Source: Singulisphaera sp. GP187 (lineage in GTDB: Bacteria; Planctomycetota; Phycisphaerae; Phycisphaerales; SM1A02). Taken from it: 58,313 nucleotides of DNA. The stretch spans positions 1 through 58,313 of the forward strand of contig CAMBWI010000007.1 of assembly GCA_945871445.1 (NCBI GenBank). Direction: 5' to 3'. A program made the translations under genes and the position numbers. How positions within the stretch are numbered: the first letter of the stretch is position 1; each line of letters opens with the position of its first letter. Positions 20,870-56,255 of the stretch are shown one piece after another. The notes beneath the pieces are model-generated. The model was given only the letters and a program-made list of their open reading frames with translations, made no database searches and was not told the origin of the DNA.

Positions 20870-21823
20870 ATGACATGGGTATGGCGAGGTCGAGATGATG
20901 GACCAGATCCAGCGGCACAACGTTGGCATCAAGTGATCCGTCCATGGGATGCTGCTCCGCGAATGCGTGGTCGGAAGCGTCCAATCGTGGTGATCGGATA
21001 TCCAACTGATGCAGGAGTTCGAGCCAACTTCGGACGACCAGGTGCAGTCGATGGTCCAGCAGCGCTGCGAACTGCATGCGCAAATTTGCCTGCACCAACA
21101 ACGCATTCGCTCTTCGATGCAGGCGACGCAAGTGGCGCAGGCGAAGATGTTGAAAGTTGGCAGCAATCACTTGCTGCGGCAGTGTCAGCTGTACGCGCTG
21201 GCGATGGAATCCCACTCATTCTGGGTGGAGGCCACGATCAAGCCTTTGGTCATTGGATTGGAACTGTGCGCGCGGCTGCCGATGGTGCAGTCGTTGGCTG
21301 CATCAACTTCGATGCGCACATCGATATGCGATCGTTGCAATCTGGTCGCGCGCATTCTGGAACTCCATTCTTTCAAGTGCATGCATGGAGCGCAGCCAAT
21401 AGCCGACCATTCAAATACATGCTGCTTGGTATGCAACCTCCGCACAACACACCAGCATTGATTCATACTGCATCCGCTGCAGGAGCACAGCTTGTTGATG
21501 CGGATGCGTTCCATCCTGGCCAAGAGGCATCGTTGTTGCAATTGGTTGATCGTTTTCTGTTGAATGTCGATCTGGTCTGTTTGAGTATCTACTTGGATGT
21601 CTTCAGCGCAGCATCTGCTCCAGGCGTGAGCGCTCCATCACCAATGGGAATCGCTCCTGATGCAACCTTCCGTACGATTCTTCGGCGAATTGCGGCAAGT
21701 GGAAAAGTTGCAGGCATAGAAGTCGCAGAGTGCGCGCCGTCGTTGGATATCGGCGGTCGCACAGCACGCTTGGGTGCTGCGGTCATCGACACAATTGTTC
21801 GCTCGCTCTCGATTCAGTCATGA
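20870..21823 (+). CDS. hutG: Formimidoylglutamase (HutG-like, arginase family)
   Basis: A 317-residue binuclear Mn2+ ureohydrolase. Metal-binding motifs GGGHDQ, INFDAHIDMR and SIYLDVF are in order, and SAPGVSAPSPMG after the last is typical of HutG rather than arginase. It would cleave N-formimidoyl-glutamate to glutamate and formamide, the last step of histidine degradation; hutH and hutU occur at 43235-46486. One oddity is that the last motif reads SIYLDV where the family normally has two metal-binding aspartates (DxD); the first is tyrosine here. Thirteen bases before the ROK kinase. Confidence 0.85.
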   Translation: MTWVWRGRDDGPDPAAQRWHQVIRPWDAAPRMRGRKRPIVVIGYPTDAGVRANFGRPGAVDGPAALRTACANLPAPTTHSLFDAGDASGAGEDVESWQQSLAAAVSAVRAGDGIPLILGGGHDQAFGHWIGTVRAAADGAVVGCINFDAHIDMRSLQSGRAHSGTPFFQVHAWSAANSRPFKYMLLGMQPPHNTPALIHTASAAGAQLVDADAFHPGQEASLLQLVDRFLLNVDLVCLSIYLDVFSAASAPGVSAPSPMGIAPDATFRTILRRIAASGKVAGIEVAECAPSLDIGGRTARLGAAVIDTIVRSLSIQS

Positions 21824-21836
21824 GGATGCAGGCGTG

Positions 21837-22742
21837 ATGCGAATTGGAATCGATCTTGGTGGAACAAAAATCGCAGGCTGTGCATTGAGCGAAGATGGAA
21901 AAGAAATTCTGCGCCGACGCGTCGCAACTCCAAAGGGTGATTATGCAGGGACGGTGGGAGCAATTGCCGCACTCGTGGAATCTATAGAGAAGGATATTGC
22001 CACATCGTGCACTGTTGGTATTGGTTATCCCGGAAGTGTCTCTCCCAAACACGGCACTCATCGCAACGCAAATTCGACTTGTTTGAATGGACAAGATCTC
22101 ATCGGAGATCTTTCAGTAAAACTTTCCAGAGAAATTCGCGGAGCCAACGATGGAAATTGTCTCGCGCTCAGTGAAGCATTCGATGGTGAAGGACGCGATG
22201 CGCGGGTTGTCTTCGCTGTGATCATCGGAACTGGTATTGGTGGTGGAGTTGTTGTTGATAAGCGCATCTTGGTTGGCCACAACGCAATCGCAGGTGAATG
22301 GGGGCATTGCCCGATGCCAGGGACAGATCGCGCTGAGCGTCGCGCTCGACGGTGTTACTGCGGTCAAGATGGTTGTATTGAACAATTTCTTGCCGGTCCT
22401 TCATTGGAGGCAGAATATTTTCGCCATTCAAACGAGCATCGTTCGCTTGATGAAATTGTCGCGCGTAGCGAAAATGAAATTGATCCGATTGCCCATTCCA
22501 TTATCAATTCGCTTTGTCAACGATTCGCAGATGCTCTTGCAGTCGTTGTGAACACGATCGATCCTGATGTCATCGTCGTTGGTGGAGGAGTGAGCAATGT
22601 GAAGGCGATCTTCGAGCGCACGCCTGCATTGGTCGCAGCGCAGATTTTTTCAGATCATTTTGATACGCCGATTGTTCAAGCACAATTCGGCGATGCAAGC
22701 GGAGTCCGTGGCGCAGCGCGCTTGTGGGATGCTCGCTCCTAG
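21837..22742 (+). CDS. ROK family sugar kinase
   Basis: A 301-residue ROK (repressor, ORF, kinase) protein lacking an N-terminal helix-turn-helix, hence a kinase. GIDLGGTKI (residues 3-11) is the ATP-binding start, GTGIGGGVV the second phosphate loop, and CYCGQDGCIE the ROK zinc-binding signature. GEWGH carries the conserved histidine. Candidate substrates are fructose, glucose or N-acetylglucosamine/N-acetylmannosamine; choice between them is not possible. ATG at 21837 is preferred over an upstream start inside hutG. Its stop overlaps the convergent D-amino-acid dehydrogenase gene by four bases. Confidence 0.9.
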   Translation: MRIGIDLGGTKIAGCALSEDGKEILRRRVATPKGDYAGTVGAIAALVESIEKDIATSCTVGIGYPGSVSPKHGTHRNANSTCLNGQDLIGDLSVKLSREIRGANDGNCLALSEAFDGEGRDARVVFAVIIGTGIGGGVVVDKRILVGHNAIAGEWGHCPMPGTDRAERRARRCYCGQDGCIEQFLAGPSLEAEYFRHSNEHRSLDEIVARSENEIDPIAHSIINSLCQRFADALAVVVNTIDPDVIVVGGGVSNVKAIFERTPALVAAQIFSDHFDTPIVQAQFGDASGVRGAARLWDARS

Positions 22743-38648: not shown

Positions 38649-38721
38649 TGGAGCGTATCGGAGTTGAACCGATAACCTCCGCCTTGCAAAGGCGGCGCTC
38701 TGCCAATTGAGCTAACGCCCC
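38649..38721 (-). tRNA. tRNA-Ala (anticodon UGC)
   Basis: The minus strand folds into a complete cloverleaf. Acceptor GGGGCGT/ACGCTCC has one G-U pair; the D arm is TTAGCTCAATTGGCAGAGC. The anticodon stem is CCGCC/GGCGG with loop TTTGCAA (anticodon TGC), and the T arm is ATCGG-TTCAACT-CCGAT. Discriminator is A; CCA is not encoded. It stands alone rather than inside an rRNA operon. Its upstream side faces repeat copy 3. Confidence 0.97.
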
Positions 38722-55389: not shown

Positions 55390-55944
55390 TTACGCTCTGC
55401 TTGCGTATGAACCGTCTGTCGTGTTGATTCGAATCATTTCGCCGATCGTAATGAATGGAGGCACGCGGGTCTTCAATCCCGTTTCGCAGGTTGCTTCTTT
55501 CAGTTGGTTTGTTGCAGTCGCACCTTTGATGCCTGGAGCAGTATCGGTCACTTGCAACTCCACAATATTCGGTAACTCGATCGAGATCGGTCGACCATCG
55601 CACCATAAGACAACCAGTTCAGTATTTGGCTTTGCATACAAAGCCATATCGCCTACAACTTTTTCATCGAATTCACTTTGTTCGTAATTGGCCGAATCCA
55701 TAAATACAAAGTTCTTTCCGTTGGCATACAGATATTCCATCGGGCGACGATCGAGTTCGACTTGCTCGACATTCTCGCCAGAGCGCAGTCGCTTCTCCAG
55801 AAGCGTTCCCTTTTCGATGTCCTGAATCTTGATCTGAACAAATGCTCGCAGATTGCCAGGAGTGACATGTGTGTACTCGGTGACTTTGTACATACGGCCG
55901 TCAAGTTTGATTGCGATGCCAGGTCGAATGTCGTTGGAATTCAT
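55390..55944 (-). CDS. efp: Elongation factor P
   Basis: EF-P rescues ribosomes stalled on polyproline. The three-domain protein is 184 residues, typical. In the first domain the loop that carries the modified residue reads HVTPGNLRAFV: the position of E. coli Lys34 is Asn31, with Arg33 two positions on, so neither the EpmA lysine nor the EarP-type arginine site is standard. Domains II and III are conserved (VELQVTDTAPGIKG, TRVPPFITIGEMIRI). Shine-Dalgarno AAAGGAC lies eight bases before ATG. A candidate small RNA or attenuator lies 150-275 bp upstream. Confidence 0.96.
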   Translation of the reverse strand: MNSNDIRPGIAIKLDGRMYKVTEYTHVTPGNLRAFVQIKIQDIEKGTLLEKRLRSGENVEQVELDRRPMEYLYANGKNFVFMDSANYEQSEFDEKVVGDMALYAKPNTELVVLWCDGRPISIELPNIVELQVTDTAPGIKGATATNQLKEATCETGLKTRVPPFITIGEMIRINTTDGSYASRA

Positions 55945-56097
55945 GTTGTGGTCCTTTGGGGAGAACGGGCGATCATAGCCAAGAGTGCATTATTCACTTG
56001 GCAGTCACTCTCGCGAGGTGCATTGGCAGGCGCACTGGCAGGGGCAGTTCAGTTTGAAAAAAGGTTAAAAAGTTAGGAAGATATGGGTGAAAAATAG

Positions 56098-56128
56098 AAA
56101 AAAAACCCCCGAGCACAAGGCTCGGGGG
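56098..56128 (-). terminator. Strong intrinsic terminator, minus strand
   Basis: A perfect 9-bp stem CCCCCGAGC (56106-56114)/GCTCGGGGG (56120-56128) with a five-base loop; the minus strand continues with eight T residues (A tract 56098-56105). No protein gene is encoded on this strand between here and prfA at 58020. Confidence 0.93.
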
Positions 56129-56221
56129 CGGAGGGAGGGAAAAGGGCGTAGTTGATGAGTCGCTTGCAATTTGAAGGAAATTCTTCAAATTGCACAACAA
56201 CTCATGCGGACTCTCATCCGC
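56098..56221 (-). ncRNA. Candidate small RNA (or efp leader attenuator)
   Basis: On the minus strand a promoter (-35 TTTACA, -10 TATGTT) predicts a start at G 56221. The first bases form a hairpin GCGGA-TGAGAG-TCCGC (56221-56206). Next comes an 11-bp perfect stem GCAATTTGAAG/CTTCAAATTGC (56166-56193) extended after an internal loop by ATGAGT/ACTCAT (56155-56160, 56200-56205). A single-stranded C/U tract containing CCCTCCCTCC (about 56129-56148) follows, then a strong terminator. No ORF is present. The nearest minus gene is efp, start 55944, so a terminated efp leader is the alternative. Confidence 0.62.
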
Positions 56222-56227
56222 AATAGG

Positions 56228-56255
56228 AACATAACTCAGATTTCAGGTTTGTAAA
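56228..56255 (-). promoter_or_regulatory. Candidate sigma70-type promoter of the small RNA
   Basis: Minus strand: TTTACA at 56255-56250, 16-bp spacer, TATGTT at 56233-56228; a start seven bases on falls at G 56221, exactly the first base of a hairpin. Confidence 0.55.

Follow-up and report, generated by a model that had tools for sequence, protein, structure and literature searches.

The window, meaning the whole 58,313-nucleotide stretch of DNA analysed here, contains a feature that is strongly supported as a stand-alone small-RNA gene, here called RNA-A, lying on the minus strand with its predicted start near position 56221 and its end near position 56098. An earlier note on this DNA had proposed a small RNA with its own promoter, a structured 5' domain, an open C/U-rich tract, and a terminator, and comparative evidence strongly supports that proposal. 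RNA-A is most likely a trans-acting sRNA that is Yfr1-like in architecture. The complete explanation that we prefer, in which an independent sRNA gene carries a frozen tract that pairs in trans with G/A-rich RNA, appears reasonably probable.

All of the elements listed in the earlier note were found, on the minus strand, which that note had left unstated, and together they delimit an RNA of approximately 124 nt. The putative promoter consists of a -35 element, TTTACA (56250 to 56255), that is exact in 13 of 16 aligned homologues, and a -10 element, TATGTT (56228 to 56233), that matches TATNNT in all 16; the spacer between them is 16 nt in the window and in 15 of the 16 homologues (the exception is locus L027). 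The promoter is thus conserved across the homologues, but in one sequence taken alone it is not above chance, with 4 promoter-like sites in 2 kb of both strands compared with 2.1 ± 1.5 in shuffled sequences. At four loci (L045, L050, L053, and L061), a AATTCCAAGAAAAAT-like element was seen by eye 5' of the putative -35 element, approximately 80 to 100 nt upstream of the core; it is possibly a regulator site or an UP element.

The predicted transcript begins with hairpin 1, GCGGAUGAGAGUCCGC (56206 to 56221), for which 5 pairs were counted, with 100% of alignment cells paired and 2 pairs changed on both sides. It is followed by the long, rapidly evolving hairpin 2 (56155 to 56205), in which 89.8% of cells are paired across the 8 outer pairs counted, 7 of these 8 pairs are changed on both sides, and the innermost is unpaired in 7 of the 16 homologues. 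The earlier reading of this second stem as 11 plus 6 bp was not reproduced, the minimum free energy (MFE) structure giving 10 plus 12 pairs with one bulged base. Next come the invariant single-stranded linker GCCCUUUUCCCUCCCUCCG (56129 to 56147), which is the putative seed, and the intrinsic terminator, comprising the stem-loop CCCCCGAGCCUUGUGCUCGGGGG (56106 to 56128; 8 pairs, with 408 of 408 cells paired across 51 sequences) and a U tract encoded by eight T residues in the window sequence (56098 to 56105). The statement that the region holds no open reading frame was nearly right: a mechanically called 68-amino-acid frame with a TTG start (55994 to 56200, minus strand) overlaps RNA-A, but the frame is not kept in relatives.

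Folding of the 124-nt RNA-A gave an MFE of -59.0 kcal/mol, compared with a mean of -28.75 in 200 shuffles (z score of -8.57, with none as low), and left the linker open. The three-hairpin MFE form is common to all 16 close homologues, in which the first 18 nt of the tract, a sequence of pyrimidines only apart from flanking G letters, have a mean unpaired probability of 0.94 to 1.0. The 5' domain of these homologues was aligned over 3 helices with 21 pairs in total. In this alignment, 96.1% of cells were paired, compared with 33 to 46% when the structure was slid by 1 to 3 positions, a percentage that leans upward because the structure was named from the window's own fold. Double changes affected 9 pairs and 24 cells, against 4.7 and 7.5 in shuffles, and none of 500 shuffles was as high; the value for further pair types was reached by 20 of 500. 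Compensatory changes, whose absence from homologues the earlier note had named as grounds for rejecting the RNA, were thus present in both 5' hairpins across the 16 homologues, and the small RNA therefore stands on this count. The terminator hardly varies in the 16-homologue alignment and is little informative there. Across 51 distinct terminator sequences, 54 cells were changed on both sides, compared with 16.3 in shuffles, and the covariation score of 0.382 (0.156 ± 0.015 in shuffles) was reached by none of 500; two further measures, doubly changed pairs (3 versus 2.8) and further pair types (7 versus 8.5), were not above shuffles. More distant homologues keep the tract and the terminator and have different 5' domains.

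Conservation of the tract was followed in 80 efp loci, the best 80 of 252 confirmed loci gathered by EF-P similarity. The exact 21-mer core was found upstream of efp with usable flank in 62 of the 80, and locus L049, where the core lies near a contig end, brings the total to 63; the linker is exact in these 63 of the 80 fetched loci. Four of the remaining loci have less than 350 nt upstream and are too short to tell, and 13 lack the core. An alignment of 63 rows comprised the 62 loci and the window, and identity within the 21-mer is uninformative in it because the rows were selected by that 21-mer. The three positions past the selected 21 carry C in 59 of 63 rows (T in 4), C in 63, and C in 63; upstream, in an ungapped count from -60 to -9, the flank is variable and no letter exceeds 38 of 63. 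When the 18 loci outside the 62 were scanned on both strands with up to 4 substitutions allowed, only L049 matched (0 substitutions), and the 13 informative loci without the tract held no variant within 4 substitutions, synonymous ones included. The tract is therefore either present intact or absent, with no sign of drift.

A search of planctomycete genomes with a covariance model, as the earlier note had proposed, was carried out with a model of the core plus terminator (R1), and its strong matches are confined to one family. Among 397 genomes of the class, 22 matched at an E value of <1e-10, every one of them among the 33 listed genomes of the family to which the window belongs, with the next best genome at 2.2e-5. 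Among 181 genomes of the family, 99 matched at an E value of ≤0.001 and 82 had no match. With five genomes holding weak matches only set aside (G483, which has a contig-edge copy, and G474, G446, G009, and G501), strong matches (E ≤ 1.7e-7) were present in 94 of the 181 family genomes, spanning 14 genera, and absent from 87. There was one strong match per genome except in G459, whose two copies are probably one gene because both sit at contig ends. At the Rfam gathering score, the window yielded no family for RNA-A, its sole match being a tRNA gene (38649 to 38721, minus strand). At E values of up to 5, seven RNA-A loci gave 12 matches, none convincing, two of which were weak SorX matches on the RNA.

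Weak R1 matches revealed a second RNA, RNA-B, in which CATCTTTCTCCCCTCCG is followed by a terminator. In the window's genome, RNA-B lies on the plus strand beside an aminotransferase gene (G000:C12:30550-30618; L202 1489-1557), where the exact tract CAUCUUUCUCCCCUCCGCC occupies C12:30562-30578 and precedes a covarying terminator. The exact pattern occurs in 93 of 181 family genomes and 27 of 45 genera, twice in five genomes, compared with 0 for a reversed-pattern control. In 35 terminator sequences chosen by the 17-mer, 8 of 10 pairs were changed on both sides and 91.1% of cells were paired, the value for further pair types being reached by 95 of 500 shuffles. A simple scan detected no promoter for RNA-B.

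A second model, R2, matched 50 of the 397 class genomes at an E value of ≤1e-7, all of them members of this one order (families f1, f2, f4, f5, and f6), with two to four matches at an E value of ≤0.001 in 21 of the 50; the best match outside the order, at 7.3e-7, was weak at the class level. In 392 genomes of the phylum, 20 matched at an E value of ≤1e-5, 19 of them in the order. Most of the aligned relatives (L339 to L378, mostly from other families of the order) consist of a CUUUCUCCCCUCCGCCCC-like core and a terminator, some are more divergent, and some genomes hold two or more loci. The siblings keep different exact tracts, not repeats of one short motif. The R2 search of the window's own genome is led by RNA-B at 2.3e-20 and RNA-A at 8.1e-5, which are set apart from the next match at 0.003, and RNA-A reached only 21.9 to 28.9 bits against R2 in the five loci tested; common descent of RNA-A and RNA-B is likely but not proven. 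Seven loci of RNA-B or its relatives matched no Rfam family at E values of up to 1. At four loci (L343 981-1047; L346 998-1063, minus strand; L351 960-1027; L353 995-1062, minus strand), a C-rich tract with a terminator follows like-looking genes, the one at L343 encoding a TSCPD domain (the domain test was made in L343 only, and the others are alike by eye). These relatives are possibly a 3'-UTR-derived sibling RNA.

The earlier note had suggested that the linker pairs with GGAGG ribosome binding sites, and this part went unconfirmed. We sampled 340 predicted starts, obtained by crude ORF calling from 458 kb (20%) of the window's own genome. Words resembling the Shine-Dalgarno (SD) sequence precede approximately 25% of these starts, compared with 7 to 13.5% at other offsets, and GGAGG precedes 1.5%, which marks weak use of SD sites. 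No mRNA target emerged: tract A (the RNA-A tract) showed no enrichment, pairing with 34 of the 340 start regions at or below -12 kcal/mol, compared with 59 ± 14 for shuffled tracts and with 48 of 340 regions inside genes. Tract B (that of RNA-B) gave 36 compared with 38.5, and at -18 kcal/mol, the strictest threshold, it showed a slight, nonsignificant excess (6 versus 3.1, reached by 6 of 60 shuffles and equalled by 6 regions inside genes). Anti-SD pairing by RNA-A is plausible by complementarity and unproven. In the window's own genome, the 18-nt antisense of tract A with up to 3 mismatches had no site except the RNA-A gene. In 19 genomes of the genus, antisense patterns gave more nonself matches than reversed patterns (33 versus 10 for RNA-A and 22 versus 8 for RNA-B), and a G-U-tolerant 13-mer gave no excess (26 versus 23 reversed). 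The antisense matches of G009, G011, and G012 lie, by eye, within one coding gene. A search for Hfq (PF17209) found it in none of 41 genomes, while 5 of 14 genomes in the control set were positive, and pairing would therefore be Hfq independent or use another protein.

The recurring complementary sites lie in a candidate RNA, RNA-C, and not at a ribosome binding site. One orthologous locus accounts for 11 of the 33 antisense matches for RNA-A and 4 of the 22 for RNA-B, and the matches for both tracts cluster there in genomes G010, G008, G005, and G002. RNA-C is a purine-rich noncoding candidate of approximately 400 nt (L387 to L390, L392, and L396; L391 in the window's own genome) with repeated hairpin words (GGCGAG...TCGGAG) and a terminator. 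In the four genomes named above, the approximately 400 nt are 84 to 93% identical, and a terminator-like hairpin followed by a T run forms their end. Through antisense matches to tract A, an apparent homologue was reached in each of G004 and G017; that in G017 has upstream gene neighbours in common with G008, and that in G004 is connected solely through blastn (67% over 168 nt). Synteny placed the RNA-C of the window's own genome at about 21700 to 22080 on the minus strand of G000:C2, beside flanking proteins that are 69 to 83% identical, and pieces from both its 5' and its 3' end survive there along with the word GGAGGGTAGGAAAA.

Sites for tract A in RNA-C (at least 15 of 19 pairs, overlaps merged) number 4 in G010, 3 each in G008, G005, and G002, 4 in G004, 5 in G017, and 1 in the window's own genome; for scale, both strands of the 458 kb of own genome hold 33 sites of at least 15 pairs for tract A (the gene included), compared with 21 for the reversed tract. 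Tract B pairs with RNA-C at 18 of 19 positions in G010, G008, G005, and G002. The best duplexes with tract A reached -32.1 to -38.3 kcal/mol in six genomes (0 to 1 of 200 shuffled tracts as low) and those with tract B reached -30.8 to -32.8 kcal/mol in five (1 to 4 of 200), the six strong RNA-C pairings being selected figures because the loci were found through their antisense match. A second set of 300 shuffles in the first four genomes gave 0 to 3 (A) and 0 to 5 (B) as low. Tract B was unremarkable at the G004 locus (129 of 200 shuffles as low). The own-genome locus, found by synteny alone, has the weakest pairing, at -23.8 kcal/mol for tract A (14 of 200 shuffles as low) and -20.0 for tract B (88 of 200). 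The sites are partly open, with a mean unpaired probability of 0.29 to 0.76. Rfam at E values of up to 1 gave nothing related to RNA-C except BjrC68, at 20.5 to 21.7 bits over the terminator end (gathering score of 39). RNA-C could act as a sponge, could itself be regulated, or could be an unrelated purine-rich sequence, and we regard a sponge role for it as rather unlikely.

Comparison supports a model in which the RNA-A gene would be transcribed from its own sigma-70-like promoter into a noncoding RNA of approximately 124 nt that ends at an intrinsic terminator. Covariation and folding support the further reading that the 5' hairpins act as structural caps, whose sequence drifts while their pairing is kept, and that the terminator closes the 3' end, with the C/U-rich tract of approximately 19 nt kept open between them. 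The tract would be the functional site, base-pairing in trans with G/A-rich RNA, probably without Hfq. Among its targets there may be mRNAs whose start regions are purine rich, as candidates only, and the partly complementary sites of the RNA-C candidate could sponge RNA-A and RNA-B. We tentatively entertain, as a minority possibility, a three-part circuit without detectable Hfq in which at least two C/U-rich sRNAs, RNA-A and RNA-B, are titrated by the approximately 400-nt RNA-C array, similar to Yfr1, Yfr10, and Yfr2 but of independent origin and set within an order-wide C/U-rich superfamily. If this were true, RNA-C would be an evolving tandem array of complementary sites titrating frozen-tract sRNAs in planctomycetes.

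In the portions of the published accounts used here, the cyanobacterial sRNA Yfr1 is 54 to 69 nt long and carries an ultraconserved ACUCCUCACAC in an unpaired stretch (PMC2190773), Yfr10 shares the Yfr1 motif on a less conserved body, and Yfr2 bears a nearly complementary motif (PMC6778093). Set against those portions, RNA-A resembles Yfr1 in that stem-loops enclose an unpaired stretch whose pyrimidine-rich motif is ultraconserved and in its lineage-wide occurrence, and RNA-C in some genomes resembles Yfr2 in bearing a nearly complementary motif. However, RNA-A lacks ACUCCUCACAC, its linker reading GCCCUUUUCCCUCCCUCCG both in the window and at every fetched locus that carries the element; and its 16 homologues are 99 to 135 nt long and belong to another phylum with other neighbours. 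The layout of RNA-A is similar to that of Yfr1, in which 16 to 20 unpaired nucleotides lie between two stem-loops, but comprises three hairpins and a linker of about 25 nt in the window. The Yfr1 covariance model was not among the Rfam matches at E values of up to 5 in seven RNA-A loci. RNA-C differs from Yfr2 as described there in being approximately 400 nt long with up to five sites, and it is known here from sequence alone. The alpha-r14/NfeR1 sRNAs, as far as the cited portion describes them, have three hairpins, each bearing CCUCCUCCC (PMC10746234). They share with RNA-A an ultraconserved, unpaired C-rich motif of the anti-SD type and stems that differ strongly in sequence, whereas RNA-A is without three CCUCCUCCC hairpins and has one longer, different tract in the linker between hairpins.

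Two of 7 loci gave matches to SorX (RF02784, Rhodobacter) below threshold over the same segment, scoring 22.3 and 21.4 bits (E values of 0.35 and 0.65), but the gathering score, 46.6, is far higher. According to the cited part of its literature (PMC8625941), SorX originates from the 3' UTR of ompR-1, whereas the promoter of RNA-A is conserved, and we treat the similarity as a chance likeness. Sibling sRNAs in general are alike in that there is more than one related sRNA per genome but are not a homology group. The closest counterparts of RNA-A are Yfr1 in architecture and alpha-r14 in motif idea, and by the features tested neither is a homologue. No account of such an RNA in planctomycetes was found in the literature within reach, subscription papers lying outside it. 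By sequence-based criteria, RNA-A has the attributes of a trans-acting sRNA, namely, its own predicted promoter and terminator, no conserved ORF, and a conserved accessible seed, and we file it as a putative new family of trans-acting sRNA whose frozen tract is unusually long. One table row of a review gives 8 for the Planctomycetes/Verrucomicrobia/Chlamydiae group, compared with 345 for Proteobacteria (PMC9029176), and sRNA regulation in planctomycetes is little charted. With a C-rich sRNA whose frozen tract spans 19 to 24 nt, related RNAs across five families of the order, no Hfq found among 41 genomes, and a candidate complementary RNA, it becomes testable how sRNAs act there without Hfq and whether a paired sRNA/sponge design arose more than once. 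The analysis also yields two covariance models for RNAs that no Rfam family covers.

An alternative to pairing in trans is that an RNA-binding protein (cold-shock, KH, or another CU-binding protein) docks on the tract or is sponged by it, the RNA then acting by titration or scaffolding of that protein. This would accommodate the lack of enrichment of pairing at mRNA starts, a tract that is unpaired and, flanking G letters apart, made of pyrimidines only, the occurrence in some families of multiple related RNAs within a single genome, and the failure to find Hfq in 41 genomes. However, short protein motifs usually need less than the letter-exact conservation over 19 to 24 nt seen here, the siblings hold different exact tracts in place of repeats of a single short motif, and complementary sites recur at one orthologous locus. 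We consider protein docking unlikely.

The C-rich tract might instead be part of the terminator or of 3'-end processing, as a termination enhancer or exonuclease block, and not a seed. In RNA-A and RNA-B, as in the aligned relatives, the tract does abut the stem of the terminator, and some relatives directly follow coding genes, as at L343 after the TSCPD-domain gene. Yet among 40 terminators in the 458 kb of own genome, only 3 have CCTCC or CTCCC within 24 nt upstream, two of these being RNA-A and RNA-B themselves, which led us to reject a general terminator feature. The exact conservation also extends well beyond what a terminator needs, and we hold this role to be quite improbable.

The preferred reading of RNA-A as an independent gene is supported by its neighbours. 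A divergent DUF1573 gene (PF07610; 56297 to 57547, plus strand; Pfam E value of 2.8e-13) lies outside RNA-A and is its conserved syntenic partner. Downstream, efp, encoding elongation factor P (55390 to 55944, minus strand; identified with Pfam), is a frequent but dispensable neighbour, its start codon lying 154 nt past the end of the T tract, as the earlier note had it. The synteny set comprised 70 loci that the model searches had yielded, two of them from G459 and a single one from each of the other genomes, and so covered part of the 94 genomes; L160, which has no exact 17-mer, was left out, leaving 69. The DUF1573 gene is divergent upstream in 66 of the 69, even where efp is missing, the exceptions being L106, L120, and L157, with 1.5, 0.7, and 0.1 kb of upstream sequence, respectively. 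A regulatory region shared by this gene and RNA-A is possible.

The alternative offered in the earlier note, a conditional terminator (attenuator) in the efp leader, has in its favour that efp lies downstream on the same strand, 70 to 1,039 nt from the tract, in 51 of the 69 loci. It is contradicted by the other 18, where efp was not seen: 5 of these have less than 140 nt of downstream sequence, but 13 have 1.1 to 2.8 kb without efp though RNA-A is intact, with genes such as an M50 protease with PDZ domains (L109) or a thiolase (L110) in its place. Since RNA-A stands intact beside DUF1573 without efp downstream, it is not an efp leader; we reject attenuation on this synteny as highly improbable. 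RNA-A is INDEPENDENCE from efp and is not tied to a downstream gene. EF-P relieves polyproline stalls, and the tract reads PFSLPPPP in one frame, open in the window with efp downstream, but a stall leader peptide through which EF-P would control its own terminator is almost certainly wrong and was rejected, given that 26 of 63 rows have an in-frame stop ahead of any ATG, GTG, or TTG, that start codon and frame are not conserved, that informative loci without the tract hold no synonymous or other variant within 4 substitutions, and that efp is not always downstream. A quadruplex or i-motif on the opposite strand, considered by eye only, is not favoured because the letters in the loops vary no more than the G runs do.

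At L349, two related RNAs stand in tandem (978-1043 and 1162-1227), flanked by genes for an amidase and for SHMT; the gene beyond efp in the window likewise encodes SHMT.
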